A DNA stretch of 64,000 nucleotides from Ischnura elegans (Eukaryota; Arthropoda; Insecta; Odonata; Coenagrionidae): contig NC_060253.1 of the NCBI RefSeq assembly GCF_921293095.1, positions 97,667,073-97,731,072 of the forward strand. The letters run 5' to 3'. Positions 16,187 to 64,000 of this stretch are shown here, in pieces. Below the pieces are notes generated by a model. It made no database searches, was not told the DNA's origin, and worked only from the letters and a program-made list of their open reading frames with translations. The translations under genes were made by a program, and so were the position numbers. Within the stretch, counting starts at the first letter, position 1. The number at the start of each line of letters is the position of its first letter.

Positions 16187-17202
16187 GGCTCCTCTGCTAT
16201 CTATCACGATGACCCCTTTCATTACTCCCCTCCCATTGTCACGAAATTGGATTCAGTGGCAGATTAAATGGGGGCGGTCGCCGCTCATCTTATTTCTGGA
16301 AATATTGAGAAGGTGGATATTTTTGAGGCGTCTCTCCAATCTCAGTTTTTGGTTCACCAGTTTCATCCAATATTTAACACTTTGATGGTAGACGAGATAA
16401 TAAAACATCAATATGAATTTTTCCAAAAGCGATGGAAGACGTAGTATTACATCTGCCGCCGTTTGAAATAAAAAAATTACTGTTTCAGTAGAACATAATT
16501 TAATTTTCATGTCAACCCACCTGTCCTAAAACAACAAATGCTAAAGGTATGATACATTAAAAAGCAACCTTATTAAATAAGCAGAATATATCAGTCACAT
16601 ATTCAAAATTGTTGAAACATGCCCCAACATGAGCGTCGCACAGCGGGCGGAAATCGGAAAAAGCCGGACAAAATTACAAAATGGCTTTTTTTGAGTTATA
16701 GACTTGAAAATTCGCAGGTATACTCAAAAATAATTGAAGTTTATGGATATGTACTTTATTTGGCTTAGATCCTACCCGTTACTGTGATACAGAGGCTCAA
16801 ACGAGAGCAAATTTCCATAAAAACGCCCGTCTTCAATTTTCTCTGAAAATCTTCCAAAGTAAGTAGATGGTGAAGTTATGGATGGATTCTTGCGGAATAA
16901 AAGACCACATACTCTGTTGGCATAGGCTTTTTTCTTTAATTTCCCGTAATTTTAAAGAATATTAGCGATAAATTCTTTCCGTGCAGTTACAAAATGGCGG
17001 ATACTGTTTTTCAACAAAGTTTTAGATTTAGGTAGAGTTTCAAATGGGTTTTCGGCAAAGTCACGCGGAGTAACTTATATGAGAGCATTCTTTGAAGATT
17101 TCTTGAGGTGTTTATGCAGTTATCTTTAAAATAAGTTTGCGTCGCCGGAAATCACATTGATTTTTCGATCGCGCGGCAGGGTTCGTCTCCGCGCGACGGG
17201 AG

Positions 17203-17409
17203 TTGGATTGGCTGCGACGCGGTAAGGTTATTGAAGCTGAATGGGTTTTAACGCTCAGCATTCACCGTTTTTATATTTTGCTTCAAGACACCGATTCTCA
17301 TATGGCCTATGGTGAAGACAGTGGAGGTTTTTCAGCCGCGGTAAGTGCACGTTTCATTGAAGTTCATTTCGTTTTCTTTGGATGCGATCGAAGACCATGC
17401 TTCTATTAA
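17203..17409 (+). other. 68-codon open frame in the foldback arm
   Basis: Encodes 68 residues starting MDWLRRGKVIEAEWVL. The initiator reads TTGGATTGG in DNA, so the start is not a true ATG. An identical product is encoded on the minus strand in the other arm (19036-18830). It has no family resemblance that I recognise. Most likely it is not a gene and is open only because the arms are GC-richer; the identity simply reflects arm similarity. Confidence 0.3.
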
Positions 17410-17731
17410 AAGCGTTCAAACCTCGAAAAAGTGAGTTGTTTTCCTGGGACTCATACAAGAATACCTACCAGAAAGATACCAGCTGAGACTCTTACACTTT
17501 CTTTACTATCCGATCCCTGACCCCCAGGATTCTACCGCGAAAACGGTCGTTTATGACACCGCGGAGCGGAGCCTTTGACCGTCTTAACCGGTTATTTCCA
17601 CGGGACCTTCTAGCTTTTTTAAATGTTTATCATACCTTCAGTTCTACTTTGACTACGGTGAAGGAAAGTTAAGTTATCTTGAGTGCTCTGAATTTGTGAA
17701 AGTGATTTGAATTGGTTTGTGGAGCGTAAAA

Positions 17732-17755
17732 ATGTCAAACTCCCACGTTTCCTGT
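17732..17755 (+). other. possible first coding exon remnant in the foldback centre
   Basis: AAAATGTCAAACTCCCACG opens MSNSHVS and is followed at once by TTTCCT|GTAAGTAT, a consensus splice donor. Such a short ATG-donor exon is plausible for the 5' end of a lost transposase gene, since nothing downstream before the right arm is coding. Speculative. Confidence 0.25.
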
Positions 17756-19605
17756 AAGTATAATTTTGAATAAATCACTGAAATTTTTTTCAAAATAGTT
17801 ATTTAAGTATATTACTAATTTTAACTGAAAAATTTCTTATCATCCCTTTCTAAACTAAAATAAATTAAAACTTAAATTATCAAATCCCACTGTTTTGATT
17901 CCAATCGATACGATATATCCGATATGCATTTTTTTAAATCGTATGTGGCATTATAGCGTAGACAAACCAACAGAATATTTATCGATATCAACTTTACGAT
18001 ATTTTACATCTCCTAAGTTATTCATACCCGACACTCTTGCTCCGCAGATTTAGCATCTCATGATTCAGCTGTCCGTCAGTATGTTGAAAACTAAAAACAA
18101 TCTTTTTTTGATTTCGAAATGACTATATTTTCCTGTAGGATAATAAATTATATCGGCATTAAGATTAATAAAGTTTATGAAGTTAAGGTTAGCGAACCAA
18201 TTTTTTTGTCGACACAAAATTCGTTCATTGTTTCGAGAACTCACTGCCCACATCTTAAGGTATGGCTATGAGATGCGTTTTGTCAGGAAGTCATTGAGAA
18301 ATTTCATAGCATCAGGGTCTTGTCTTAAATTCAGCCTCCGCGATAAATAATGCAGCAAATATTTGTTTTCTGAGTGAGTGATATTTTTCCCAATTTCAAA
18401 ATTATTTTATAGATATCCAATCATGTAATAATGTGAGGAGGCATTTTCTATTGAATGGCGGAAGGAGTCTATGTAAAATTTAAAAATAAACAATAAATTT
18501 GTAGACCCTATGGTTATCCAATGTCCTAATGAGTACACGGGAAGAACGTGTGGTAAATGTGTAGCAGACATCAGTAATCTATAAGTCAAATTAGAACTGA
18601 GGGTATGATGCACATTTTAAAAAAGCTAGAAGGTCCCGTGGAAATAACCGGTTAAGACGGTCAAAGGCTCCGCTCCGCGGTGTCATAAACGACCGTTTTC
18701 GCGGTAGAATCCTGGGGGTCAGGGATCGGATAGTAAAGAAAGTGTAAGAGTCTCAGCTGGTATCTTTCTGGTAGGTATTCTTGTATGAGTCCCAGGAAAA
18801 CAACTCACTTTTTCGAGGTTTGAACGCTTTTAATAGAAGCATGGTCTTCGATCGCATCCAAAGAAAACGAAATGAACTTCAATGAAACGTGCACTTACCG
18901 CGGCTGAAAAACCTCCACTGTCTTCACCATAGGCCATATGAGAATCGGTGTCTTGAAGCAAAATATAAAAACGGTGAATGCTGAGCGTTAAAACCCATTC
19001 AGCTTCAATAACCTTACCGCGTCGCAGCCAATCCAACTCCCGTCGCGCGGAGACGAACCCTGCCGCGCGATCGAAAAATTAATGTGATTTCCGGCGACGC
19101 AAACTTATTTTAAAGATAACTGCATAAACACCTCAAGAAATCTTCAAAGAATGCTCTCATATAAGTTACTCCGCGTGACTTTGCCGAAAACCCATTTGAA
19201 ACTCTACCTAAATCTAAAACTTTGTTGAAAAACAGTATCCGCCATTTTGTAACTGCACGGAAAAAATTTATCGCTAATATTCTTTAAAATTACGGGAAAT
19301 TAAAGAAAAAGCCCTATGCCAACAGAGTATGTGGTCTTTTATTCCGCAAGAATCCATCCATAACTTCACCATCTACTTACTTTGGAAGATTTTCAGAGAA
19401 AATTGAAGACGGGCGTTTTTATGGAAATTTGCTCTCGTTTGAGCCTCTGTATCACAGTAACGGGTAGGATCTAAGCCAAATAAAGTACATATCCATAAAC
19501 TTCAATTATTATTTAGTATACCTGCAAAGTTTCAAGTCTATAACTCAAAAAAAGCAATTTTGTAATTTTGTCCGGCTTTTTCTGATTTCCGCCCACTGTG
19601 CGTCG

Positions 19606-24155: not shown

Positions 24156-25831
24156 AGATTAGAAACAATAACGAGAATATTTCTATGAACTATTAAATGA
24201 AGGAGTGGACATCACACCTGACTACGATAACGAAGATATCTACTATCATGTACAACCCAAACTAGAAATACCAACTAGAGAAGAAGTCAAAGCAGCAGTT
24301 AAAGCCCTAAAAAACCATAGAGCTCCTGGTAAGGATGAAATATCTGCAGAGCTATTGAAGACGGGAGGAGATATAGTCATAGATAAGCTATGTGAATTAA
24401 TGAAAATAATATGGGAAAGAGAAGAAATGCCAAAAGACTGGAGGGAAGCAATAGTTGTCCCCATACACAAGAAAGGAGAGAAAGTAGAGTGCAGTAATTT
24501 TAGAGGAATCTCACTCCTTAGCATTCCTTATAAAGTCCTATCTAAGATAATATTAAATCGTATTGAAGAATATACATGTGAAATAATTCTAGATCACCAG
24601 GCAGGGTTTGTAAAAGGCAGGCCCACAACAAATCAAATATTTATCCTCAAAGAAATTATATCGAAGTACTGGGAGTTTAATAAAGATTATTTTGCAATAT
24701 TTATCGATTTCCAAAAAGCATATGACAGTATTAATAGAGAGAGACTGTGGGAAAAGTTGGACAAGTTCGGAATTCCAAAAAAGCTAATAAACCTCGCTAA
24801 AACAAGTATGACAGACTCCACATGCTCAGTACGAATAAATGCACGGGTGTCGGAACCTTTCAGGATAAAGGCAGGCGTAAGACAGGGTGATGGACTATCC
24901 CCAATCCTATTCAACTTAGCAATAGAAGAAGCTCTTCAAAAAGTAGCAAAAATGGACGAAGGCGTAACAATTGGCTCCAGAATAAATATACTTGCTTTTG
25001 CAGACGATGTGGTAATTTTAGCAGAAAATTTAGACGACATACGCCGGCTTACAAAACTTTTCATGGAAGAAACAGCTAATCTAGGACTAAAAGTAAATGA
25101 TGGAAAAACTAAATATATACACTTTACAAGAAATGAAATGAACAGAAATCAAAATCCTCTCTACATAGACAACCACAAATTTGAAAAAGTGGACTCCTTT
25201 AAGTATTTAGGCGTTTTTATTTCAAGAGAAAACAAAGAAGCAATAGAAATACAAAACAGGCTAAATCTGGCTAACAGATGCTTCTACGCCTGCAACAAAC
25301 TCATGTCCTCAAAATTACTATCACACACTACTAAAATCAGAATATATAAAACAATCATAAGACCCGTACTGTTATATGGAAGTGAAACTTGGAAACTGGA
25401 TAAAAAGGAAGAAAGAAAATTAATTGTTTTTGAAAATAAGATCCTTAGGAAAATATATGGACCAATCTCTGAAGGAGGAGAGTGGAGGAGAAAACACAAT
25501 AGAGAATTAAGAGAGCTATACAAGGATCCAGATGTAGTGTGCGAGTTTAAATGTAGAAGAATTAGATGGGCTGGGCACATTTTGAGAAGAGAGGACACTA
25601 ATCATTTAAAACAAGTTATAATGAGGAATCCTGAAGGAAGAAGGCCAAGAGGAAGACCAAGGCGAAGGTGGTGGGACCAAGTGAAGGTAGACCTGGAGCG
25701 ATTAGGAGCGACCGAGGAGGACGCAGGAAATAGAGATAGATGGAAGAGGATTGTTGGTGCGGCCAAATATCTACTTAGATATGTATGGCCCTGGGAGTAA
25801 GTAAGTAAGTAAGAGTAAGATTAGAAACAAT
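24156..25831 (+). mobile_element. 5'-truncated RTE-like LINE with 14-bp target duplication
   Basis: The body 24170-25817 sits between two copies of AGATTAGAAACAAT (24156-24169 and 25818-25831). It ends in a (GTAA)n tail just after the stop codon, leaving almost no 3' UTR, as is usual in RTE elements. It begins inside ORF2, so endonuclease and 5' UTR were lost at insertion (target-primed reverse transcription), not by later decay. Confidence 0.9.
24172..25800 (+). CDS. RTE-like reverse transcriptase, open but 5' truncated
   Basis: The frame is open from the truncation point; codon 24205 is GTG, not a start, and upstream residues YFYELLNEG fit the family. Motifs in order are HRAPGKDEISAELLK (about residue 40), IFIDFQKAYDSIN (motif A), AGVRQGDGLSPILFNLAIEE (motif B), LAFADDVVILAE (catalytic, about residue 264 from 24205) and KYLGVFISRE. 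The C terminus has LRKIYGP, RWAGHILRRED and GRRPRGRPRRRWWDQVKVDL. These last blocks are typical of RTE-type ORF2. No internal stop, so the insertion is young, but it lacks endonuclease and promoter and cannot move on its own. Confidence 0.88.
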   Translation, partial: REYFYELLNEGVDITPDYDNEDIYYHVQPKLEIPTREEVKAAVKALKNHRAPGKDEISAELLKTGGDIVIDKLCELMKIIWEREEMPKDWREAIVVPIHKKGEKVECSNFRGISLLSIPYKVLSKIILNRIEEYTCEIILDHQAGFVKGRPTTNQIFILKEIISKYWEFNKDYFAIFIDFQKAYDSINRERLWEKLDKFGIPKKLINLAKTSMTDSTCSVRINARVSEPFRIKAGVRQGDGLSPILFNLAIEEALQKVAKMDEGVTIGSRINILAFADDVVILAENLDDIRRLTKLFMEETANLGLKVNDGKTKYIHFTRNEMNRNQNPLYIDNHKFEKVDSFKYLGVFISRENKEAIEIQNRLNLANRCFYACNKLMSSKLLSHTTKIRIYKTIIRPVLLYGSETWKLDKKEERKLIVFENKILRKIYGPISEGGEWRRKHNRELRELYKDPDVVCEFKCRRIRWAGHILRREDTNHLKQVIMRNPEGRRPRGRPRRRWWDQVKVDLERLGATEEDAGNRDRWKRIVGAAKYLLRYVWPWE

Positions 25832-26882
25832 CAGACATTATTTATAAACATTTAAATTTGATTTAAGAGACCCGTTTCCCTGAGAAACAAAATTATGCCA
25901 TTTAGATTAGTCGGGTTATCTCCGAGGAGGGATTCAAGGTCCCCCCCTCTATAATGAGCCGAATCCGCGCGTCACGGTATTTGCCGCACTCCGTCAGGAT
26001 ATGTCAAAAGACATCCGCACTCATCACACTGAGGCGCTTCCTTCTCTTCCGTAAAGAGAAGGAATGAGTCAAGCGACAGTGCCCAATCCTCAGCCGAGTA
26101 ATTACCACTTCCTCCCTTCGATTGTTCCTGGCCGAGGAGGGCCAAGCTGAAATTGTCGCCTTGATGCTTCACAATTTATTATCGTTCAGAGTCATCCACG
26201 ACTCCATCCACTGTTCAAGCACAACTTTTCTAAGGGACGCTTTCAAGTCTTCTTATGGAACTAGCATTGATGTGTGCACTAGGGTGGTGCGAAAAAACCC
26301 AAGATACAAATTCTGTGTCGCTATAGCGCGGAAAAGTTGCGATACGTTAGTACAAGAAAAACAAAAGAAGAATTATTAAAATCGGATGTCATCTTCTGAT
26401 CCCGCAAAGAACCTGAAAAAATGACAAAACTGAAAAAAATTGTTTTTTTTCGTGGTAAAAAAATAAAAGGAACTTTTTAACGCTAGAGCTAAAAATGATT
26501 ACAAATAGTATAGGTTATTATTAATATATACATATACATGGCTTTAAACAGTTATATCCGGTCGCGCAAGATCATTAAAAATGTATAAATATTGCAAATT
26601 AGCCGATTTTTCATAGTTGTGTAATGATAACTTAAGGCAACTTTTAGTGAAGTTCTAGTTACCCCAGTAGATCAAAAATATACAATATAGCTGACCACTA
26701 GACTTGAAAGGCAAAATTATGATTTAAAAAGGCAGAATATTAACCCTGTTGAAATCGAGAGTGAAGATGTTGAGGTTTCAAATGACGCCACGCAAAGTTC
26801 AACAATCAAGGAACAATTTGATGACTATGAAGATTACTCATCTAGTTCGACCAAGAAAAATTAATCACCATGGCAAATGAGG

Positions 26883-27700
26883 GTAAAATTACAAGCTATA
26901 GCTTTGAATTGTGATTGTGACCGTGCAGCTGCTATTATAGCATCAAGTGCACTTGAATACATTGGTGTTATAACTAAAGGAGATACTTCTAAGTTCATTG
27001 ACTGATGTGAAATTAGAAGGGAAAGGAGAAATACTATAAGCGATTTACAGCAAACCGTGATCCTGCACCAATTTCACATGCTACATGGCTTACCGATGCA
27101 AACCGACTTTTCGTATGTACCGTAAACCCCTCAGATGCTTTTAAAGCATAGTTACTTTTATTTTAAATCTTACATGCCTGTTCGTGTGTACAGAGCATTA
27201 CTTGACTGAAGATCAAAATAGTTTTCCCGGTTATTGAACGGAGCTCTTACTTTGCTCACTCAAAGAACGTATTGATGGCGATGGTTTTTTATTACAGAAG
27301 GCACATAAGAGATCAAGGGCTAAAAAGAGTATTAAAAGTAACAGAATTAACCAAAAGGCAAACCTATCGGAAACTTAACTACTCCAACCATGAACTTCAA
27401 AGCAACTGACTATATGGAATTGATTGACTGGAATGTAGTATAACTATCTACTCCACCTCTTCTTCGGAGAATTACCAATGAAGAAATAGCTTCCTTCATT
27501 GAATCAGGCGATAAAACAGATAGGGATATTAAAAACTTCCCCGCATTGGAGCCGTGAGTGAAATTGGTAAGAGAGGCATCCCTTAAGCTTTGTGGTTATC
27601 GATCCAGAGATGGATTTGTTAGGGCTATATTCAAATCAAGGTCCATTACGTCAGACTTCACCACCAAATCGCAGTACAAAGTAGCGTTCAAAAACTAAAA
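26883..27700 (+). pseudogene. decayed transposon protein in the hAT-like element
   Basis: Pieces include VKLQAIALNCDCDRAAAIIA, SSALEYIGVITKGD and SKFID, a TGA stop, then CEIRRERRNT. Later come YMELIDWNVV, LLRRITNEEIASFIESGDK, VKLVREASLKLCGYRSRDGF and VRAIFKSRS. The DRAAA-IA-S, IRRER and CG-RSRDGFVR patterns recur, in my memory, in unnamed arthropod transposon-borne proteins. At least two in-frame stops and frame changes break it. Function unassigned. Confidence 0.5.
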
Positions 27701-27965
27701 GTTAAAAGTAGGGCAAAAATGTAAATATTGTAATTAGCACTAACCCTCATTGATTGGATTGAGGGAAGGGTGTGGGTGGAACCCGAAGTAAGGACACCTC
27801 CCCGCGGCGAGTTCTGGGATGTTTAAATATTTTTAAATCATATCTTAACAAAGGAAGAACTGCATGATCAAACATGTATTTTAGACTAAAATATTACCTC
27901 AAGTAATTATTACCTAACTCTGAAAAATCGGCCTGATTGCAAAATTTATACATTATCAATGATCT

Positions 27966-28299
27966 TGCACGATCGGATCATCATCACTGGTCAACAATCC
28001 TAAGATTGGTTTGACGCAGCTCTCCACTCTATTCTCCTATCAGCTAATATTTTCACACCTACGTATTTATTCTCTTTCACATCTCTCTTTACTTGTTCCA
28101 TATATTTTGTTCGAGGTCTTCCTTTTCCGTTCTTGCCTTCCACTTGTCCTTAGACGATTGTCTTCATCAGGCCATCATGTCTCAGGATGTGGCCTACAAG
28201 GTTGTTCCGTCTTCTTATTAAGGTTTTCATGAGGCTTCTCTTCTCTCCTACTCTTCTTAGGACTTCCTCGTTACTAACTCGGTCGATGCACGATCGGAT
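27966..28299 (-). mobile_element. short LINE 3' fragment with 13-bp target duplication
   Basis: 27979-28286 lies between two copies of TGCACGATCGGAT (27966-27978 and 28287-28299). On the minus strand it reads CIDRVSNEEVLRRVGEKRSL, NNLVGHILRHDG, GKGRPRTKYMEQVKRDVKE and WRAASNQS, the C-terminal end of an RTE-like ORF2. It ends in a (TGA)n tail. It inserted into the right inverted repeat of the hAT-like transposon, making it the innermost and youngest layer there. Confidence 0.82.
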
Positions 28300-28610
28300 A
28301 TAACTGATAAAAACCATCTATATATATTAATATAATTAATAACCTATGCCGTTTGTAATAATTTTTTGCCAAAGCGTTAAAAAATATAGTTTCTTTTATT
28401 TTTTTACCACGGAAAAAAAAACAATTTTTTTCATTTTTTCAGGTGCTTTGCGGGATCGGAAGATGACGTCCGATTTTAATAATTCTTTTTTTTTTGTTTT
28501 TCTTGTACTAACGTATCGCAACTTTTCCGCGCTATAGCGACACGAAATTTGTAACTTGAGTTTTTTCGCACCACCCTAGTGTGCACGTCGTCGCTTAAAG
28601 CTTCCTTGGA

Positions 28611-31012: not shown

Positions 31013-31300
31013 CATCTCCTCAGAGAAGTACGGGTTTGTGTGTCGGCAAGAATGTTGGCTTCCCTACCAGAAGTCCCGGGTTTAAATCTAGGCGGAGGCA
31101 GTTTTCTCAGAGACTGTCCGATCCTGGCTTGAGTGTTTTGTGGAGGACATTTCAAGTGCACCACTCCTTCCGTCGAATGGGACTTTGAGCTGTTATCGCC
31201 TTTCGTTATGAGTAGGCTAATGCTGACGCTGGGTTTCTCTCCACCCCTCTCTCCTTACCCTCTCATAATGGCGCATGACCCCGGCTGAGGCTTCACAGAC
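31013..31300 (+). repeat. tRNA-derived SINE, near full length
   Basis: A-box region GTGTGTCGGCAAGAATGTTGG; B box GTCCCGGGTTTAAATC; body TTTTCTCAGAGACTGTCCGA, TGTGGAGGACATTTCAAGTG, CCTTCCGTCGAATGGGACTT, GTTATGAGTAGGCTAATGCT and GCTGGGTTTCTCTCC. It aligns along its whole length with the copy at 4484-4772 in the opposite orientation. Confidence 0.85.
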
Positions 31301-31835: not shown

Positions 31836-34800
31836 GGTCGCACAGTGGTCCCAAATCGAAAAAAGCTGGCCAAAATTAATTACGCCGTTGTTATTATGTA
31901 TATATTTGACGTAAAGGTCTATTCTTATTGTTTTTGACCCGCTTATTCTGAATTTATAACTATTTTTTTTGTATTTGCAATAATTTTATTGCTATTTCAC
32001 ATTTTGTTTAAACAATTAATTTTTTTAACATTGGAATTTGAGATTATACTGGTGATAGTAAATTAAAATTATACATATCATAAAACTGAATTAGTTATTT
32101 AAAACATACATAAATGCATATAAAATGACTGCATTGTTTATTTTTGGACAAATTCTGAACAACTTATTTTGAATGAACCAAGAGAACATTTTCTACTTTC
32201 TCATATGTTTGATCGTATTTGATACGAAAAATAAGTTAATATTAATTGGAAATTTATATTATAAGAATATTATTAATATTATTGTACTGCATTAATTGTT
32301 TAAAAATTATAATATCTAATTCTAATTAAGTAGACAATTTTATAGTTCCTTGTAACGTGCCAATGGATTTGGAAGCAATTTTAAACGGGGTTCCGTATTT
32401 CACAAGTTTCAACGGAGGCATTATTACAATCATTGAAATGTTATAAACAATATTTCATAACTCCTATAACTCAAGTTAAACGCCAAATTTATTGATACGC
32501 TTGCAATAAGCTCTTTACGAAGTGAGGCATCAATTTAACGAGCACATGATTTGGTACGAAAAATTTAATGAGATTTTCCATTAATTTGGGCTTCTTTAAT
32601 TATAAAAAAAAATAAGTTAACATTTCTCCTTATCTTTCTCAGTCATTGTTACGAAAAAAATTTAAATACATTCATGATCACTATCCGACAAATCCTCATC
32701 ACAGTCGTCATCCACTCAATTCTTCCAGGATTAATAAACTCTTTACCTCGACTGGTAATTGAAGTAATTTCCTTCTTTGAGCCTTAGAAATACTTGATAT
32801 CATTGCATCTGAAGTTAGGAGTAATCTTTTAAACAGGTCTTCATTCGCTGCTATCAAGGAAATTTTCCTTGCATGATGCTCCCTGAATCTTCTTATGTCC
32901 TTATTCCTCGCCCCCATTGCCTCCTCGGACAAGTGGACAATAGGAAGGGCAGCTTCTTTAGATGTCCGTCGGAGGAGCAAGTACAGATGTTTCGTGAAAT
33001 TACCAGAAACGATCATGGAAAGGGCTTCTTCGTGGGAGATTTTACTTTGCCTCACATCCTTGGCTTTCCATTTTGATAACACTCGCCGCGCTCTTGAGAG
33101 AGTGGTTGTTGTCACCTCATTTATTATTTTCGCCACGAACTCATCACCTTTGCTTCGATAACTCATGGATGCTCTACTGGCGATGTGCTAGCTCTAAGAT
33201 CCTCCGTTTTCCATCTCTAGGCCCTTTCACTGGACTTCTCAAATTGTTTAAATAAAGGCGGAGGAAATTTCAACTTCTCATTTAGGCAGTCAGCGAACTT
33301 TCTTCTAAAAAACCTGTCATTTCTTTTTCTTTCCTTCCACCGGCGAAGATAATTTGAGAGAAAAAACACTTCTCCGCAATTTTTTTAGGATAACTTTTGA
33401 ATTAACGTCCTCATCTAACTCTAACTTGTTGCTCCAGCAATCCAATAAATATTGGTTTTTAAACGATACGGAACCTTTTCCACTTTCAAGAAATTTTTCA
33501 TGCATCTCAAGACGCGTGAAAATTTTCAGAATTATCGAACTAAAACACTATGGGCACTCTTCTTCAACCCCACAAGTCTTCTTTAAAAAGTTCGAGGATA
33601 CTCGACTTTTTCAAGACTCGATCTTCACGCTTGAGGAAACTAACTTTCACGTCTTTCGTTTGGCAAAATCTGAGTAAAACTGAGTTTTGGCGATAAAATT
33701 TCGGGCAAGCGATGTCTAGAAGTAATTTGGGGGTTCCACAGTGTGAGGTTCGCGATGCTATTATCTCCATTTTCTAGGAAATATCACATTTGAAAGGTGA
33801 AAAGGCTTACTCCGTTCATCCCCTGTGGCCAAAGTGCAATTCATAACAAGTGTACAGAGAGCGGTGGTTCTGTTTTCCCGATGGGCGCAATCAATAGCCT
33901 AGGCCTTTTCGGCCGTCGTTTGCCCTGCATGTGGTTGAGGAGGCCGCTAAGGAGGCGACAGAGGGACAATGTGCCGCGTGAGGGCGAAAACTAACCCGTC
34001 TAACGGAAGGAAAGGGTGGAGTAGCATTTGAGGGATTCTTTTTTGTTTTGAATGCATTCATGTTTTTGAGGATTACTATAATCACAGCTGCGAACTTTCG
34101 TTCCATAAATATATCCTTCCGCTGAAGTCCTTAAGCAATTTTTATGAGAGCATGGGCACGCGTAAATAAAAGGTAAGGTCAAGTGGAAACTATTAATGAT
34201 AAAACGTTCTACGTATGACAAGAGATGTTTATTCATAGGGTAAATATTTTTTGTAGAAATAAAATATCCAACAATGTTGAATAACACCCATAAATACTGG
34301 ATTTCCTCGAGCCCTACCACGCACCAGCCAGGCCGCCGCCCTCGTCAGCGCATTGCATCATTATAGTTAAGTCAATGCTGAGGTCGGAGTAGCAACTAGT
34401 AGCAAAAATTTTATTCACTACTGCGTTGCATATACTTTTCCCTTTGTATTGGTGTAAAAGACACCGTGCATTCACGTGCCTCTCTAAACGATATTGTACA
34501 TTTTATTTGAAAATTCGGGTAAAAAACACTAAAAGTTACAAAATATATATAAAATAGTAATCATAGTAAAATCCGAATAAAATTTATGTCCCACTATGTA
34601 ATAATGTTTATATTTGTAGTTAAAAATGTTTTTGGCCAAATATATCGCGTAAAGGTTGTCCTGCATGACGCTGAACTTCCTCAAAATCGACCGATTTCAC
34701 GCAACTGTGATTATTACGGTGAATGCTTCATGTTTGACGGATCACTGCAGCCGCTCTGATGAACAAAAATACTAACTTAGTAGTGTATTTTGTAGACCAT

Positions 34801-34899
34801 ATCCTGTAGAATCCGAAAATAAGGTTAAAAAATTCCTTGAAAATTTTCGAAAAAACGACTTTTGGCCAGCTTTTTTCGATTTGGGACCACTGTGGGTCG
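31836..34899 (-). mobile_element. Transib-like DNA transposon with RSS-like ends
   Basis: The element 31841-34894 (3054 bp) lies between 5-bp duplications GGTCG (31836-31840 and 34895-34899). The first 35 bp are perfectly inverted at the two ends, starting CACAGTGGTCCCAAATCG. This end is related to the foldback element's (shared CACAGTGG, AAATC, then AAAAAGC-GG and CAAAA). Counting from the heptamer CACAGTG, an A-rich block (CCAAAATTA) starts after 22 bp. Coding remnants are on the minus strand. Heptamer plus 5-bp GC-rich duplication suggest Transib; the coding remnants do not confirm it. Confidence 0.72.
32708..33770 (-). pseudogene. decayed protein gene of the Transib-like element
   Basis: N-terminal piece (33770-33564): CGTPKLLLDIACPKFYRQNS, LRFCQTKDVKVSFLKRED. 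Middle piece (33505-33317): LDEDVNSKVILKKLRRSVFS, LKLSSPVEGKKKK. Then a 152-residue piece (33166-32708): FVAKIINEVTTTTLSRARRV, KWKAKDVRQSKISHEEALSM, IVSGNFTKHLYLLLRRTSKE, ending LLQLPVEVKSLLILEELSG. It is Lys/Arg-rich and helical. Stops separate the pieces. I see no RAG1/Transib catalytic motif and no DDE triad, and I do not recognise the family. Introns may account for part of the interruption. Confidence 0.5.
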
Positions 34900-36955: not shown

Positions 36956-39900
36956 GTACTCTTATATCTACATCAACTAAACTCATTTCTGCGTAACTTA
37001 GTGGAATGAAGTACTATTGATGGCATAACAAAGCACTGTTCCACAAATAATTAAATGTTGTATACTAGTCCTTATCAGGACAAACAGAAAACATGAAAAC
37101 ATTATTACTTACAGTTAATTTTTTTATTTTGACGTCTAAACATTTTTTTACATAAATAATCAATTTGAATGTGACCTTAATGGCTCGACATGAGAGAAAC
37201 CCGCCTACTTCAAACAAGAGGCGAAAAGGCGACCACGGTTTAATGACCCTACTGAAGGACGAAGAGGTGCACTTGAAGTGCCCTCCTTAAGGCACTCAAT
37301 CAGGGATCTGGTATCCCCTAATAAATCTCTGCCACCCTCTCGCCACTGTCTCCCTATGAATAACTTGAACCGCTCCATTATTTCATGGCAACCCTATATT
37401 TTCTGTTAATATAAAAAAAAAACTTTCCATCTAGAGCGGATTAATTTTCCACGCCATGACTCACTGATACAATTTAAAATTTTTACGATTTATTAAAGTA
37501 AATAATTTGCGATTTTCCTACTGGGTTTTTGGACATACAAACAGTAGGTTTTTGGCTAATAAATAAATATTATGTAATTCACAGTATTAGTGACTAGGAA
37601 TGGTCCGGTAGGTTTTTCGGTTCTGTAGTGAAATAACTAAGAAAAACTCGAATCATATGTAAATCACAATTAATATCGTTAACAATTCAGCGCCACCCCT
37701 GGTGGTTTATTATACCTCGGTATTGTCGCGATGATGAAAAATTAGCGCAGTATCACGCAAAATTTTTAACGTTGAACTGATGTAATCTAGCTCATCTATG
37801 AAACAAAAAAAACAATTTGTTATCCTCTAAAATGCTCCCTCCGCCTCACTTCTTTCATCATTCCACAACGAGTTTTCGATGAGTTTGCTCACGTGGCATA
37901 GTTTCATAACATGTATATTTGCTTATTTTAAAGCTGATGGTTGGAATAGAGTTTGGAGATTACACTATTTCATGGCTCATTAAAATGTTACGCTTGACTT
38001 GCTTTTCCTTAATCAGTCCACGCCCCTAACGTCCGCGATGATATTAAAGAGTATATGACATTATGTTGTTAAAATTAAGATCTTCCGGAGTGTGCCCTTG
38101 GAATAACATACGGTATTAAATATAATCATCCACAAGCGTATGTTGTGTTACTGCCTTTGCAGGAAAGGTCTTTCGACCCATAAAACTACAATACACACAT
38201 TGGCCCGAAAATCCATCACCTTATTTTCTCGTTGCAGCCGGGCGACGAAGTGCTGGCGCATTTCCAGGTTTCGGACGAGGGACATAACCTGGGCAAGGCT
38301 TCGCTCGACATAACCTACCCGCCAGAAGACGAGCCCGAGGCCACTGCCATCAACTGCATCATCGTCAAGGACTTGGTGAGCGCCCACTCAAGTTCATACT
38401 CGAGAAAACCAATAGTCGCAATACTTCGCAGTAGCGCTGAAAGTTAATGCATCGTCGAGAGGTTCCCCTTCAAACGGAAAGCTAGAGACCAAAAATAATT
38501 CTTCGCACTTAGGAAAGGTATTACCGGATGAACTGGCCAAAGCTGCTCCTCGATTCTGCAAATATCATTAACCAGTTATAAGTGACATTATGACGTTACC
38601 GTCACTATATTAACGTAGGCGCGTCTGGAGCGATTCTGTACCTTCTGACCAACTAATTTAATAACACTTCCACTCTGCCATAGTGGACTGGCATGTGTGT
38701 GTTTGTTTTATGGGTCAGCTTTCTTAATATAGGTGAGAGAGCCCGTTATGGCGAAGTTGAGTCAATTTTCGTCGTTAAACGATGAATAAGTGTAATAAAT
38801 GCTTGGTTGTAGTACTATTATTGTATCCCGTCATTGTATTAATATTATGGAATATTATTATTAATTATAATTAATATTTAATCCACAAATATGCCTTGCG
38901 ACGAGTTGACAAAGGGTAAATCTCACAAATCACCAAGGAAAGATCGATCACTATCATGCGCTTCATAGATTACGAATGATATTGAACTTCCCAGTCGAGG
39001 AACAAGTATGTTTAATGAAATAGGATAACATTTTTTAACTAAATTCACCCAAATTACCCTCCAGGGGTAATCCGATACTAAACTATTACGACACAGGCTC
39101 CACCTACAGTACTTCAAGTTATATCAGTATTAATTCCTCGATTTCGTGTTTATATAAAAAAACAGCTGATAAAGATGCCCTCCTTAACCTATTACAAGTG
39201 TGTGGTTTGAATATTGTACCAACTATGCCAACCTGTCATACAAAGAGCTGCAGCTCTCTCCTAGATATTATCTGTGTTGATGACCTTAATAAAATTACGT
39301 CCTCTGGTCAAACACCGGATCCGCCACTCTCATGCCACGACCAAGTCTTTGTTACTTACAAAATGTTAATTCCATCATTTACGCCAAAAATTGTAACCTT
39401 CAGAAACTTCAAAAATTTTGACGAGGAAAAGTTCATCGGCGATCTATGCCAGATTAACTGGTCTTCTATCAGCAGACTGATTTCTGTGGACGACAAAGTT
39501 AACGAGTTAAACTCCCTTCTACTCAACACACTGGACTCGCATGCTCCAATCCGAAGCGTACGTGTCACCCATCCCCCGACACCATGGCTCACACCGGAAA
39601 TGAAACTGAAGATAAAAGAAAGAAATATTACTCGAGCAATGTTTCGGCGATATAAAGTTCCGGCTACTCTCACTAGATATAAAACCCTACGCAACCAAGT
39701 GAAGAGTATGATACGCAATGCAAAAAAAATATTTCAAATGCACTCTAGGAAAAAAGGGCGATCCTAAATCTATGTGGAAATCCATTCGTAATCTTGGAAT
39801 CTTACCTCCTAAAACCAATAGCAATATCTTAAATATCCATCCAGATGTCCTCAATAATCAGTTTGTCAAAAATGAACCGCAAATCTCCCTCGAACCTCAT

Positions 39901-42900
39901 ATCCCACCTCCAGCGAATCATAATCAGTTCTTCTTCTCACATGTCTCATCGTCCTCAGTTTTTCGCGCGTGCAAAAAAATCACCTCCAATGCCAAAGGAT
40001 ATGATAAAATTCCCATTTCTTGCATTAAGAAGGCTCTACCTGTCATTTTGCCCTCGCTCCTAAATATAATAGATACCTCACTTCAAACGGCACACTATCC
40101 TGCGACCTGGAAGCACTCCCTTATACACCCAATTGCTAAATGCCCCCAGCCCTCTACACCTGATGACTTCAGACCGATAGGAATTTTATGTGCTTTCGCC
40201 AAAATATTTGAGCGGATTGTATTTCAGCAATTAAACTCATATACATCCACTGCTAACTTACTAAACCCCTTGCAGTCTGGCTTCCGTGGTCGACATAGCA
40301 CTCAAACTGCACTCTCAAAAATTACCGAGGACATTCGTGAGGCAATGGACAAACGCCAGGTGACGATCTTAGTATTATTCGATTTCACCAAGGCTTTCGA
40401 CTCCGTTTGCCATGAATTGCTCCTCCGCAAGCTGAGTACCCTAAATTTCTCAAAGAGTGCTGTTGACTGGTTTAGATCTTACCTCAGCGGTCGCACTCAA
40501 GCAGTGGTGGTCAAGAGTAACCTACAGTCAAACTGGATCCCTAATCCCGTGGGGATGGTACAAGGCTCAGTTCTTAGCCCACTTCTTTTTTCTCTCTTTA
40601 TAAACGACCTCCCTGATGTCCTCATGCATTGTGACTACCACCTTTACGCCGACGATTTTCAAATTTATCGTCATTCATCGCCGTCCAATATTAATAATTC
40701 AATCGCACTTATCAATGAGGACATCGAGAGAATTAACAGTTGGGCGCAGGCCAATCATTTGGTTCTCAATGACAAGAAAACAACAGCAATAATCATAGGG
40801 AGCAATTATTTCTTTTCCCAATTAGACCATGAAAATCTACCAAAAATAAGACTCGGTACAACATACGCTTATGAGGAAACGGTAAAAAACCTTGGAGTCA
40901 TATTCGATCGAACCCTTAGCTGGAAGCCTCAAACAAATTATGCGAGGCGTAAAATTTTGGGATCACTGCATCAACTTGTCAGAGCCAGAGAAATACTTAC
41001 ACCCGACATACGAATTTCATTAGTTAAAACACTAGTCTTCCCTCACTTGGATTATGGTACAGCCTTATTCACTAACCAAGACGACGCAAACAATAATAGA
41101 CTCCAATTGGCCATGAATTCAGCTGTAAGATTTATTTACGATTTAAAAAAATGGGACCATATTAGTAACTATTACAACCGCCTTAACTGGCTTAAGTATA
41201 AAGAGCGTCGCACCCTTCACATAATAACTCTAGCCATTAGTATCTTAACGACCGGTTACCCGCCATACTTGTACGAGAAATTCGTTAGAAAATCTGAGGT
41301 TCATAATATACCCACCCGTAATCATAACATTGACCTCCATATTCCAAAACATCACACGCCTCATATGAACAAATCATTCATAGTAACCGCCTCACGAATA
41401 TGGAACTCTCTCCCAGCCCAAATAAGAAGCAGTACAAATATCAATAGGTTTAAGCACAGCACATATGGGTTTCTGAAGAATGCCTCCTTATCCCCAGGTT
41501 AAATTTCTTTTGTTTATATTCACTTTCTTATGTTCATATTTCTTGTTTATATTCACTTTCTTGTGTTCATATCTCTTGTTCATATTTCTTTTGTTTGTCA
41601 CCTTAAATTTTGTAATTAGTGTGTCATATCTAAGTGCGATTATTTATTTTTTTGTCGAAAATATTGTATTGTTTTTTTTCATGCACTAGGCGATATGCAC
41701 TGCTCACATTTGACCGTATATGTATATATATTTATTTACTTTTTCCTTTTATTTATCTATCTCAATGTGAAATGTAGAAAGCTGTACTTATATTTTCTCA
41801 TGGGCCCCAGTGCCTACGAAAATAAACGATATCATTATTATATTGAGCTACATATACTAGACCTTGGGGACAATCGAGTAGAATTTCAGATAATAGTCAT
41901 TCAATAATATTGTCTTTGCCCTATATGCCCTTCAAATACCAGATCGAGACATAAACTACTTTGACGTCTCATGTAAATTCGTAGGCTCCCTTTGGAGCAT
42001 CGCACTTCTTTATTGCTACCAACATGAGAAGAAAAATTTTTCACTGAGCTACTCAGCTGCCGTTCATAAGCCCTGAGACGCTTGTTAACAGAACCACTCG
42101 AATGCACTTGCCGTCAATAATAGTTTTTCTCCCTAACAGGAGGGTGATGGCATCTTAGATGTACGACGTACATTGTACGTGTGTCTTATCCAGCGCCTGC
42201 AATGTATCGTGCGATTTGTTCTTGCGTCCGATTTATCATTGGCCGGTCTCTTGATTTTAAGATTCTTAAGCATTTTGCCTCGTTAATCAAGATGAAAATA
42301 AACACCAGATGTATTCTTATAGCCCGTATGACACCCCAATTTATTGGACAATCTATTGGATATTAGATTGTGGTCCAACTGACACACACCAATTTTTAGG
42401 CCAATGTCCTTTCCTCAATATTGGACACAATTTCTTGCCCAATTTGGAATTAAGAACACGTTCTATTTCCTCGCGGCAAATCTCCAATCAGAGGTCAGTT
42501 ATGTTGACCCCTAGTGGCCAAAACAAGAAGCTCTTCACAAAACATCAGGTTTGGCTGTAAAACATTGTTTTTTTTCGAAAATTCGCTCGAAGTTTCTAAG
42601 ATGTGCTCGAAAGAAGTTGTTCCACTATTGATTGAAGCGTACAAGTCACACGAAGGCTTATACAACGTAAAATCATCGAAATACAATGACGTTCTCCAGC
42701 GTGACATTAGAACACTATTTCGGCCAATATTGGTACAAATCGGTTACAAATTGGTCGGTGTCGTGCGGTACGTAATGCCCAATATATATTAAACAATACT
42801 GCAAGCCGATTAATTGGACAATAAATTAGAAAGTGTCACACGGGCTTAAGGCTGCAGTGTACGCGGCAAACACATGGAAACAGCGCTGAGAGCAGTTTTC

Positions 42901-45900
42901 GCAGACACTTGAATCAGCAAAATAAATAAAATTGAAGACATTAGATTACCGGTTAAAAAATTAATTAAAGATTACTTACAACACACGCGGTCAGGCCCAG
43001 TGGACTGCTCGGCGCCAAAACCACGGCTCTCCTCTCTTCTTCTGGTCACTTTCGTCCCATCATCCCGGACTTCCATTCACTGCTGATTAATTATGTTATC
43101 CATCCACCATTTCTTAGGTCCTCCTCTTGGTCTTCTTCTCTTCAGGGCCAAAAAAGTTGCTAATTTAGAATATCTTCCGTTATTTATCCGTTCCACCTGT
43201 CCTATCCAGTCGATTTACCTGTTTTTTAATAATCCCATAATCGTATTATGCCCATAAGGATTATATACAGTTCCTGATTGTGTCGTTATCTCTGTCCTCC
43301 TATTAATTCGCCTTGGACTAGACCATATATTTTTCTAAGCGCCCGCCTCTCCAAAAACTAATCGCAGTAGCAGTAATCTTGTTTAAAGGGTGCGTCGACA
43401 TCTGAGGCCATTTTGCACCACACCATATCATACGTTAAAAAGTAATTTTTTTAAATTTTAATATCAAGTCAAAAATTGGAGAAAATTACATATTCATGGT
43501 TTTCTCAAAATGAAATAATAAAAGAGAAAATTTATACAAAAAAATTGTTAACCTATACTTTGTTTAGAAGGTTATTATTTAAAAAAATTATTACCTGGCC
43601 AAGTTCAAAACTAATACTTTTCAAAAACTAATACTTTATTCAAGTTTTTTGTCTCCTACTGCTCCAGCTTTGGCAACAATAAAGAACTACGGGTAAAATT
43701 GTGACTTATGCAGTCTCATATTTTTTACGCTCTGTCAGATGTCCCACAATAATGGGGGAGTCGCAATCATCACAAACGGGTGGAATTATCTCTTCAGTGA
43801 AGATTTACGAGTGGGTGAGAGCGCAGTACCCAATTCTCAATCGTGCAATTGCGACCTCCTCCCTGCGATTCCTCCTGACAGACGTGGGCCACGCTGAGAT
43901 TACAGGCTTGATTGCGCGTAGTTTATTCCCGGTCCGAGAGCGCCAGGTCTCTTTCCACTTTTCTGAGGCTATTTTTTTCAAAGTGGCCTTCAAATCCTCG
44001 TATGGCACCAGCACAGAGGCAGCAACGGCGTCCGTGAGGGCTCCTTTCGCGGTCGAGTCGGCCCTCTCATTTCCAGCAACACCCACATGTCTAGGAACCC
44101 ACAGAAAACGGATTTTCACTCCTTTCCGATCAAGGGACAGCAGTTTGTTTTGAATTTCCTGGACGATTGGGTGGCAAGGACAAAAGTAGGAAATGGCCTA
44201 CAGAGCGCTAATGGAGTCGCTGCAGATCATAAAGAACGCCTTGCTACACTTATTTCCACCCAGAGCCATCTTCATGGCGAACAGCTCTGCAGTGTACCCG
44301 CTACACAGCGGACTGAGCTTGGCCTTGAGGGTTCCATGGTGTGACGAGACCACTGCACACCCGCACGCACGCTCCGACTTCGATCCATCCGTGTAAACAG
44401 GGATGAAGTCGGGATGGCGGTACATTATTTCCCTGAAACTATGCTGGTATTCCGCGACGGTTGTCAATGTAGTAGTAGTGTTTATTTTATAGGGTGCGTC
44501 GGCGGCTAAGGCCATTTTGCACCACTCACTGACTGGTATTGATAAAGGGGATTAGGCCCGTTCTGAAATTAACGTGTCAATAATTTACAATAGGTATCAT
44601 TTATATTTTATTGAAAAGTCGAGTTGAGTGTAGGAATGCTATCAGTCGGGAAATGTTTTCGGGAGTGTCTCCTAGTACCTCAGCTAGGTTGACTCCGAGG
44701 TTGTGATTCACCCGTGCAGTACGATATCTTGCACAGTCCGTCAGGATATGTCGCACTGTTAGTGGACAATCGCAATTTAAGCATTGGGGCTGTATTCTCT
44801 CTTCGGTGAAGAGGTATGAATGGGTTAATAAGCAGTGACCAATTCTTAAGCGTGTTAAAACCACTTCCTCCCTGCGGACATTTCTTATAGAGGTCTGCCA
44901 CGCAGTTATTACGGGCTTTATTTCCCGAAGTTTGTTATTTTGGATTTCGAGCCATTGCGTCTTCCAATTTTGTCTAATCATACCCCTCATGGCATTCCCT
45001 AAATCTTCCGCTGGCATTAACTGAAAATCTGTATCCGGAGACCTGAGCGCATCTTTGGCTGCAGAGTCTGCTTTCTCATTCCCTGGTATGCCCACATGTC
45101 CAGGGACCCAAGCGAAGCTTATAGTGGTCCCTTTTTTACTCAGGGATAACAGAGTGCTTTGTATGTCCTGAACAATGGGGTGACAAGGAGAATAAAGAGA
45201 TATGGATTGGAGAGCACTGTAAGAATCTGTACAGATCATAAATGACGCAACACTGTTTTTAATGGATCGGAGAGCAATCCTAATGGCAGTGAGCTCAGCC
45301 GTAAAAATGGAACAGTACGGATGCAATTTTGCCTTGAGGACTCCATGATATGGGGATACCACAGCGCACCCACAGGCGGTATCCGATTTCGAACCGTCAG
45401 TGTATACGAACGTAGATTCGGAGTTTTCGGCGCGGAATTTCTTGAAAAGTTGTTGGTATTCTCCCGGCATAGTAGTAGATTTAGAGCAGCGAGTAAGATC
45501 AAGTCTCAAAGCTGGCCGGGGAATTAACCACGGCGGCACGTTGCTGTACCCAGTGGGGTACGTGGCGGGCAAGGTAAAATTGCGTTCTGCGATTAGGTTT
45601 CTGAAGCGAACACTTAGAGGTTTAGTGGATCTTGTCTTTCGGTTAAAAAGGTCTAAAAGCAGTGGGTGAGAAATAATGTTAAAACAGGGGTGGTTCGGCG
45701 CGGATAAAATTTTTGTGGCATAATTGCACATCAACGTCTCTCTGCGATTGACTAGGGGAGGCTCTCCTGTATCGGCGTAAATGCTCAAGACAGGGGAGGT
45801 CCTGAAGGCACCGGTTGCTAAACGCAGTCCCGTATTATGAACCGTCGAGAGCGGTTTCATGTAGGTCTCACGGGCGGATGAGTACACAATCGATCCGTAG

Positions 45901-48900
45901 TCTAGCCTTGAACGTACTAATGCTCGATACAGCATAAGCATTGAGGTACGATCCGCGCCCCATGTCGAATGTGACAGAAACCGTAAAATGTTCAGAACTT
46001 TGAAGCATTTGTCTCTTAGAGCTCGGAAATGTTCGCGCCAATTCAGGCGCCGGTCCAATGTCATACCCAGAAATCGGGCGTTCTCAACGTAAGGAAGCTC
46101 ATTACCATTGAGATATAGGGACGGTGGGGCTTGTACACCCCGTCCTCGGTAAAAGTGAATGCATTTCGTTTTCTCAGTAGAGAAACGGAATCCATTCCTC
46201 TGAGACCAAACGGAGAGCTTATTCAGAGTCAGCTGGATCAGCCTAGAGGCATTCGTTAATTTTGATGACCTGCAAAAAATTGCGAGGTCATCAACAAACA
46301 AGGAGCCCATAACTGGGGAGCGGATACACTCGGTCACATCGTTTATCGCAATGGCAAATAGGGTCACGCTCAGTACGGACCCCTGGGGTACTCCATTTTC
46401 TTGTGGATATAAGGTAGATAGATATTCACCTATTCTAACTTTAAAAACTCGGGCATACAGAAAATTTTTAATGAAAATAGGTAGATTTCCTTTAAACCCC
46501 CATTTATCAAGTGTCTTCAGAATTTTGTACCGCCAAACACGGTCATACGCTTTCTCTAAGTCGAAGAACACGCCAATTACGTTTTGCCGCAAGAGAAATG
46601 CTTCCTGAATGAAACTGTCAGTCCTGACGAGATGGTCGGAGGTTGACCTACCCCGTCGAAAGCCGCACTGGATATCCGAAAGAAGGTTCCGCCGCTCCAA
46701 CCACCAAACGAGACGACGGTTGACCATTCTTTCCATCACCTTGCATACGCAGCTGGTGAGAGATATCGGTCTATAGTTGTTTGGGTCCGATCCATCTTTT
46801 CCTTGTTTAAGGATGGGTACGACTATGGACTCCCTCCAAGGGTCTGGAAAACTACCCTCTGACCAAATTTGGTTAAGGGATCGCAGCATATGGGGGAGTG
46901 CTTCTTTGGGAACATTTCTTAGAAAAGCGTTATGCACCTTATCTATTCCTGGTGAGCCGTCACGGGATTCGAGGATGGCGGAGGTCAACTCCCACAGAGA
47001 AAAGGGGTCGTTGTAAACCTCGCCAGAGTCTCTCGGGTTAAAGGTAAGAGGTATCGTCTCATTCTGCTCTTTCAGTGTTCTAAATGGTTCGTCGTAGCTG
47101 CCGTTACGACTCGTCTCCGCAAGTCGACGTCCAAAGCACTCGCTTATTTCGGGAGGTGTCGTCAGAACTCGGTCAGTCTCCTTCAGGGATGAAATTGCAG
47201 GGTTGTGGTTAGAGCCAGAGATGCTTTTAATCTTCCTCCAGATGTTGGATATGGGAGTCCTGTGGTTTATAGAACACACAAACTCCTCCCACGAAGCTTT
47301 CTTGGCCTCCTTAACCACTTGCCGAGCTTTCGCTCTGAGGCGCCGGAAGGCGGTGAGATTTGTCGCCGTAGGATATTTGCTAAAGATTCGGAGTGCCCTC
47401 TTTCGCACCTGTATAGCTTTTGCGCACTCCTCGTTCCACCAAGGAACTGTGGGCCTGTGAGATTTGCATTTAGAACGGGGTACGGTGGAATTTGCGGCTT
47501 CTAGAATGTTATCTGTGAGTACTTTTATGTTCCCCACACCATTCACATTGTCGTCGTGGTTAAAATAAAAATTTCTTTTAAAAAGAGACCAATTGGCCTT
47601 GCGGACAACCCAATTGCTTGGTTGAGTCGGACGGTGGATAAAACCGCCACCTTTAGTTATTGAAATAGGGTAGTGGTCGCTACCGCATAAATCTTTATGT
47701 ACGGACCACTCAAGCCTAGGCATTAGGCCACCTGTCGTAATACTTAAGTCGATACACGAGAAGGTACCGTTGAAGCTGTTGAATCGAGTTTTTTCACCGG
47801 TGTTTAGTAAAAACAAGTTAAGGTCATTGATAAAATTTGTGACTATGTGTCCCCTTTGATTGCACTGAGTTCTTGAGCTACCCCATAGGGTGTCGTGTGC
47901 GTTGAAGTCACCCATTAAAACATAGGGCCGAGGTAACTGACGAACGAGGGATTCTAAATTAACTCGACTCACAGGTGCACCTTCCGGCAGATATACGTTG
48001 CAGAGAGTAATTGCCTCGGGTGCGTGTACTGTCACTGCAATTGCCTGCAGCGGAGTGTCCAATTGCACTCGTGAGGTGTATAGGGCCTCCCGAATAGCAA
48101 TTGCCACTCCACCCTGGGCTCGCTGACCACTGGTGTCGTCATGTCTAAAAAATTTAAAACCTTTTAAAACGGTCTTGTCTGTCAGCTTAAAATGCGTCTC
48201 TTGCAGGCATATGCAGACGGGGTTATAGTCTCTAATTGAAACAACCAGCTCCTCCTTGTGCCTATAAAAACCATTCATATTCCATTGTAGAATAAAATTC
48301 ATGGTTTAAATTGTTAAAATAAATAAATAAATAGGTTAAAATCTGGAAATGTACGTATGTACACAGTGAGCGGAGGATCAACGTTTTAACCGCTGTTTCC
48401 TCTGCTTTATCCTGGCCTGGAACACTTCTGTGTCCGAGACACAGAGGTCTTCTTCCATGGCATCATATTGTGCATCTTTAGAGGATGTGGGTGGGGGTGT
48501 TTTATCCCGCTTATTCCCAGCATCCCCAGAAGTAGATTTTGGGTTTTCCTTAGGGGAAACCGCCTTAGGATGACTTTTCCTGTCTGTGACTTTATTAATT
48601 TGCTTTTCTGTTTTTTTTTGTTCTCGTGTGGGCATCTTCGTGCTCTCAATGCGAAAATCATTATAAGTCTGAGTAGAGATGGTACATGTAGTTTTTTTAG
48701 TGGTGGTTGCGACTATTTGCGAATACGATTTTGAAAATGTTGGGGCCATCTGTGACCGGTATTTCATTCGTGCCTCGGAGTAGGGGATTCTTTCCAGGGT
48801 CTTTATTTCCATTATCCTCCTTTCATCTTTCATGACGGGACAATCTCGGGAGTACGATGGATGCGTGCCCTCGCAGTTGACGCAGTAAGGCTCCGATGAA

Positions 48901-63900: not shown

Positions 63901-64000
63901 GGCTTCTGCGCAGGTTTCATTCCACCATGGCACCGCATTTCTTGGAAGGATGCTTCGAGATCGTGGTATGCTAATTTCGGCGGCTTGAATGATGCTGGAT
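60950..64000 (-). mobile_element. I-clade LINE, 3' part (continues off window)
   Basis: 3' tail GTAGTAGTAGTAGTA (plus strand), hairpin at 60978-61007, 3' UTR, and ORF2 running open to the right edge. It is a different family from 44470-50171 but the same as the truncated copy at 51916-52337. The 5' end, and thus its target duplication, lies outside the window. Confidence 0.9.
61087..64000 (-). CDS. I-clade ORF2, reverse transcriptase and RNase H, 5' part off window
   Basis: Open from the right edge to the stop at 61087, at least 970 codons; no start codon is visible (AVPWWNE at 63933 is internal, GTG-coded). RT motifs: NSYRPISLTSCLCKLMERMV, GVFFDLEKAYDRVW, NGVPQGSVLSVTLFAIAIND, LFVDDLAIF. 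RNase H: PVYTDGSKDNSACACAV, YTAELYAIRTAL, CTDSRSSL, GHEGIAGNEIADAMA. C-terminal zinc motif: CGDCKCPLSIRHIMLDC. About 50-60% alike by eye to the ORF2 at 44601-48302. No disabling change in the visible part, so this copy may also be recent. Confidence 0.93.
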   Translation of the reverse strand, partial: SSIIQAAEISIPRSRSILPRNAVPWWNETCAEAIKKRKKALRIFNKYPTANNLSAFRRLRAKARQVIKDAKRISWMNFVSGVNHRTPLAQVWRKVRSISGSSQHLGISFLEVEGKVITSPAAIGNVFAQLLAKVSSDECYEPSFAILKKRLENVPISFMEPKTTADYNMPFTIWELKSAIHDSHDTSPGPDEIHNAFLRNLSESALLEILETFNQLWANGDFPPSWRESVIVPIPKHGKDRADPNSYRPISLTSCLCKLMERMVNRRLIWRLERRKLLSRIQCGFRRNRSTMDHLVRIENFIQEAFLLRQHVVGVFFDLEKAYDRVWRRKILRVLREWGFRGCLPIFIQNFLTNRVFKVRTGQLLSNFDPLDNGVPQGSVLSVTLFAIAINDIAHCIKEPVLGSLFVDDLAIFCRSSRVVNASRMAQLTINKLHKWTQNNGFLFSLEKTKCVHFSRTRGVHVNPTLHLGGRNLPFVESVRFLGMTLDHKLNWKEHINSVKVNCLKSLNILKFLSHASWGADRTTLILLYRTLVRSKLDYGSFVYASARETYLKALNSVHNAGLRLCTGAFRTSPIPSIYTDAGEPPLCYRRTWLLCSYVSKILAMTSHPCYSLLFKPRFINVFNRRTKATRPVSVRFNDFIRGCEFTLPEVYPVSFSEHPPWITPTPVVNILSRSRPKSSTTPSEYQRLFAMFRWNHPNLTPVYTDGSKDNSACACAVFSPIHGNIRAKLHPMCSVYTAELYAIRTALEALGDHGGSFVICTDSRSSLQAISGFSPVHPIVQEIHSLLLTLSRKGLNIHFLWVPGHEGIAGNEIADAMAKEALNNEVLVSTLVPHEDLRASLRNVVFGKWRESWRILNNNKLRGIKDMVAAWPSSARSNRREEVVLTRLRIGHSPLTHAYLFTEEKEPPQCGDCKCPLSIRHIMLDCVKYREARRRNNLGGDLKTLLGNHPTNLICTFRFLREINIFNKV

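Follow-up and report, generated by a model that had tools for sequence, protein, structure and literature searches.

A probable internally deleted Transib transposon copy with V(D)J-like ends in Ischnura elegans

Which kind of transposon carries the exact heptamer of the V(D)J recombination signal sequences (RSSs) at both of its ends, and what does it encode between them? The question is raised by a 3,054-bp element bounded by inverted ends at 31841-34894 of a 64,000-nucleotide stretch of the Ischnura elegans genome (NC_060253.1, positions 97,667,073 to 97,731,072), the whole of which is called 'the window' here. A preliminary description, made from the letters of the stretch, saw an unfamiliar protein between RSS-like ends and offered three options, which are a Transib gene decayed beyond recognition, an accessory or captured gene, and a different transposase family that has converged on RSS-like ends. 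In our analysis, the element is very probably a non-autonomous, internally deleted copy of a cut-and-paste transposon of the Transib superfamily, moved in trans.

Ends, duplications and a second element

In an inverted-repeat comparison, the left arm of the terminal inverted repeat (31841-31875, plus strand) and the right arm (34860-34894, minus strand) are 35 nt long and 100% complementary. CACAGTG, an RSS-like heptamer starting with CAC, is read directly at both outer ends, as had been described. The 5-bp target-site duplication GGTCG is also present as described, with its left copy at 31836-31840 and its right copy at 34895-34899. CAC ends and 5-bp duplications together mark Transib and RAG-like (RAGL) elements, according to excerpts of two papers (PMC7204232, PMC4411706).

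The CACAGTG heptamer by itself is weak evidence. It has 10 matches in the window when 4.1 are expected, and 10 was reached in 1 of 100 shuffles. On the other hand, heptamer, matching ends and 5-bp flank together are strong evidence, beyond chance. The window was scanned for CAC and GTG ends that are separated by 150-8,000 bp, match at 13 or more of 16 terminal bases and have identical 5-bp flanks. Two pairs were found, 31841-34894 and 16639-19600, and none in 30 order-1 Markov random sequences. The longest perfect inverted repeat was 14-16 nt in 13 of 15 order-1 Markov sequences, with none of at least 14 nt in the other 2, compared with 35 nt in the element. Two looser end pairs, 41211/43392 (CGTCG duplication, 12/16) and 57791/58940 (ATCTA, 11/16), were set aside, as their threshold is met by chance; 2 of 10 random sequences also yielded a pair at it.

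Typical target-site duplications of the hAT superfamily are 8 bp long. An assignment of 31841-34894 to hAT was rejected, as its flanks agree over no more than 5 bp (the six bases on the left are CGGTCG, the six on the right GGTCGT). Incidentally, the window contains a possible non-autonomous hAT-like element at 26280-28578, with ends TAGGGTGGTGCGAAAAAAC, an 8-bp duplication GTGTGCAC and ~300-bp arms at 84%.

The preliminary description had also placed an A-rich, nonamer-like block after a 22-bp spacer. The spacer length is correct, and it is compatible with the symmetric 20-22 bp spacers that excerpts of PMC8355894 describe for Transib ends. The resemblance of the block at spacer 22 to the RSS nonamer ACAAAAACC is weak, with agreement at 5 of 9 places in the left end (CCAAAATTA) and at 6 of 9 in the right end (CCAAAAGTC). 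An internal A-run of the same element at spacer 10-11 also reaches 6/9. When the four ends of both elements are scored, all have 5-6/9 at spacer 22, and one end of the second element has up to 7/9 at spacer 10.

The second element (16639-19600; 2,962 bp) was found in the end-pair scan and also as both ends of its large inverted repeat match the end repeat of 31841-34894. Its ends are CACAGCG and CACAGTG, its flanks are copies of CGTCG (16634-16638 and 19601-19605), and its inverted arms of ~1 kb have 98-99% identity over 990 to 1,022 nt. It is the one relative within the window that shares ends with 31841-34894; 31 of 38 terminal bases agree between the two, and 28 of 38 are identical across all four ends. 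No Transib match was obtained in the 3 of its 7 ORFs of at least 60 aa that were searched against solved structures. One of the three had a pneumococcal surface protein as its best match (E = 0.015), followed by antibody chains, another reached E = 1.7 and the third had no match; these were taken as chance. No Pfam family was found in 6 of the 7 ORFs, in a search that overlooks the Transib ORF of 31841-34894 as well. We infer that 16639-19600 is a more distant relative of 31841-34894 using similar ends. The preliminary description had counted a different duplication length in other copies as a point against its reading; the two related elements both have 5 bp, favoring a family, with n = 2 elements only. 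The duplications GGTCG and CGTCG, and GCTCG of the Helicoverpa zea Transib (Hztransib), all finish in TCG, a likeness spotted post hoc.

Other repeats are found around the two elements. Copies of an old interspersed repeat family, similar to one another at about 67-79%, occur on both strands (4500-4763, 15745-15926, 31032-31280, 51248-51530 and others), and the copy at 31032-31280 stops about 560 bp before 31841-34894. Reverse transcriptase domains occur in 4 of 7 large ORFs scanned (24172-25797 and 39712-41499 on the plus strand; 44604-48305 and 61090-63999 on the minus strand), accompanied by RNase H in two and by an endonuclease domain in one. These four are probably non-LTR retrotransposons, which points to a eukaryotic source; the match to Hztransib described below tentatively suggests an arthropod. 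A 27-bp tandem repeat array at 60448-60748 lies within open frames, one of which is Pro/Thr-rich, and the repeat unit drifts along the array.

Transib sequence within the element

ORF 32711-33187, which has 159 codons with an ATG at codon 8 and is the element's longest on the minus strand, does not encode an unfamiliar protein. A solved-structure search matches it to the Hztransib transposase (6pqn) with E = 6.2e-15. The C-terminal part of the match is strong; it pairs ORF residues 77-133 with 6pqn chain residues 404-460, and 32 columns are identical across its 57 aligned residues. The N-terminal part is weak; ORF residues 50-77 align collinearly with chain residues 8-35, with 10/28 identities, and the database search gives this piece only 2 bits. 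When ORF residues 1-77 were shuffled 5,000 times, no shuffle attained the best ungapped score of the N-terminal piece, but this test flatters the match because the Hztransib stretch tested is the one picked by the search. A third, overlapping alignment (ORF 85-130 on chain 310-357; 1.3 bits) was taken as chance.

The two pieces directly adjoin in the ORF, where the chain numbering jumps from residue ~35 to ~404. Thus, ~368 residues (about 1.1 kb) are absent in frame between them, which points to an in-frame internal deletion of the transposase core. The preliminary description had recognized no RAG1-like core, and rightly so; the core was not seen because, on present evidence, it is missing. 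A Transib gene decayed beyond recognition came nearest among its three options. The Transib origin stands, but the gene is not unrecognizable, as its C-terminal end is clear and its N-terminal piece weaker, with the core missing.

For the same ORF, Pfam gave no match up to E = 10 and NCBIfam none up to E = 1, and the Transib assignment therefore leans on one solved relative, the ends and the duplication. Five sequences are listed for it up to E = 10 in the solved-structure search, none of which is RAG1 or RAG1L. The mean pLDDT was 37.7 when the structure of the 159-residue ORF was predicted by itself.

Upstream of the Transib ORF, at 33188-33773 on the minus strand, there are open pieces in broken frames (33317-33547 and 33564-33773), which are possibly frameshifted remains of an N-terminal extension. 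The peptide GTPKLLLDIACPKFYRQN quoted in the preliminary description is inside the latter piece, upstream of the Transib part. Neither piece matches a Pfam family up to E = 10 or an NCBIfam family better than E = 0.066. Among solved structures, 33317-33547 has no match with an E value of 10 or less, and the top match of 33564-33773 (8qnt_A, named Transposase; 49 residues, E = 0.4) is too weak to use.

The other minus-strand ORFs, 34003-34344, 33891-34130 and 34314-34502, yielded nothing in Pfam or solved-structure searches; 34003-34344 is a 114-codon open frame with several cysteines. Solved-structure searches of the element were confined to minus-strand ORFs of at least 60 aa, and only 32711-33187 among the six wholly inside the element matches Hztransib. 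Pfam searches with 15 different ORFs (9 of 31841-34894 and 6 of 16639-19600) found no family, but these blanks carry little weight because Pfam also misses the Transib ORF. NCBIfam searches with 3 ORFs yielded one match, an oxidoreductase with E = 0.066, which was taken as chance. No match came from Rfam at gathering thresholds or from a tRNA scan with the bacterial code, and no relatives were found in viral contigs and prokaryote genomes.

Catalytic positions

The place of the catalytic glutamate was located through RAG1. When the C-terminal stretch of Hztransib was searched against solved chains, 15 of the 17 sequences listed were RAG1 or RAG1L, with weak E values from 0.06 to 1.3. With 9jpu_A, a 1,040-residue full-length RAG1 chain that is presumably from mouse, query residues 7-44 align with chain residues 953-989, which puts query residue 16 on residue 962. 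This placement was derived from the listed ranges, and in the alignments printed for other chains the single gap comes after that residue. We take RAG1 residue 962 to be the catalytic glutamate E962.

Query residue 16 is residue 419 of the 6pqn chain, and the aligned window residue is Gly, encoded by GGG at 32912-32914 on the minus strand. The catalytic residues of Hztransib are D126, D225 and E436 according to excerpts of PMC6941560, and the Gly would thus occupy the place of E436. If chain residue 419 is E436, the offset is 17, and D126 and D225 would be at chain residues 109 and 208, within the missing part. Both catalytic aspartates would then belong to the stretch missing from ORF 32711-33187. 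Whereas Hztransib has all three residues, and an autonomous Transib is expected to have a complete DDE triad, in the ORF of 31841-34894 chain residue 35 is followed directly by 404, with Gly at the glutamate place. Judged from these alignments, this copy probably encodes no working transposase.

Origin and movement of the element

Known Transib elements agree with the two elements in several respects. Hztransib is 3,518 bp long, encodes a 489-residue protein, was found at a GCTCG site and carries long repeats at its ends, as given in excerpts of PMC1852546. Its duplication is 5 bp like GGTCG and CGTCG, and its long inverted ends resemble those of 16639-19600, likened here by description rather than by end sequence. 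Ends of Drosophila hopper and transib1-4 are 33-45 bp (PMC10299278), similar to the 35-bp ends of 31841-34894 when compared from published tables. Excerpts of PMC3276498 report 5-bp duplications at 532/533 sites for hopper and 7/7 for transib2. The hopper target is GC-rich, and hopper and transib2 have the target motif CCANTGG, which is unlike the GGTCG and CGTCG sites in the window (PMC3276498, in part).

How could a copy lacking the core have moved? An internal in-frame deletion would have removed the transposase core, leaving the N-terminal and C-terminal pieces. A complete Transib transposase encoded elsewhere may recognize and bind both ends, and would make nick-and-hairpin cuts at CAC, the cutting mode of Hztransib according to excerpts of PMC6941560. 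The element would then have been inserted into a GC-rich target with a 5-bp stagger. Perfect ends and a duplication beside a dead gene suggest such movement in trans by a complete enzyme. Non-autonomous elements have also been described for RAGL (excerpts of PMC7204232).

It is very unlikely that the element is instead a decayed RAG-like (ProtoRAG/RAGL) transposon that had RAG1L and RAG2L genes. RAG1/RAG2 and ProtoRAG/RAGL do have the CAC heptamer and the 5-bp duplication in common with the window elements (excerpts of PMC7204232), and RAG1 is distantly similar to the C-terminal stretch of Hztransib. Against this reading, ORF 32711-33187 matches Hztransib with E = 6.2e-15, and none of its five listed sequences is RAG1 or RAG1L. 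A convergent RAG2-like gene beside a RAG1-like gene would be another mark of RAGL, and no Pfam family was found among the element's 9 scanned ORFs, a weak test as Pfam missed the Transib ORF and decayed genes may escape it. We consider it similarly improbable that RSS-like ends arose by convergence in another transposase superfamily and that the Transib fragment is there by chance or capture. The upstream pieces 33317-33547 and 33564-33773, which convincingly match no known family (8qnt_A being the nearest), would fit such a superfamily. However, Transib-type ends, the Transib duplication length and a piece of a Transib gene co-occur here, and 16639-19600 has common ends. Captured gene and convergence, as offered in the preliminary description, are both unsupported because the enclosed ORF is a piece of Transib transposase.

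A further reading is compatible with a deletion copy. The KP element of Drosophila represses P transposition, and the short ORF could have been retained likewise because its product, which has both the N-terminal and the C-terminal part, would repress the complete Transib transposase. The 159-codon frame runs through the junction without a stop and has its ATG at codon 8. KP elements are P elements with a specific internal deletion, and made up 11/16 P elements in one fly strain (PMC10299278, in part). On the other hand, only one deletion copy was seen here, and the frame would be retained by chance after about 1 in three deletions, so that a repressor role is very improbable. Neither a Transib repressor nor a long-armed Transib appears among the titles and abstracts listed, which is a statement on these listings and no claim of absence. 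If the repressor reading is true, the short protein would be to Transib what the KP repressor is to P elements.

With the internally deleted Transib copy as the preferred reading, the element no longer stands as a candidate for V(D)J-like signals that evolved by convergence. Transib is a relative of RAG1, the enzyme that cuts antibody genes, and the ends resemble RSSs because of this known relation. Transib is a known kind of element, and the decay of this copy is ordinary. The window adds two new Transib-type elements sharing ends, one a deletion copy and the other with ~1-kb inverted repeats, and finding CACAGTG as the heptamer of a Transib element is neat, though to be expected.
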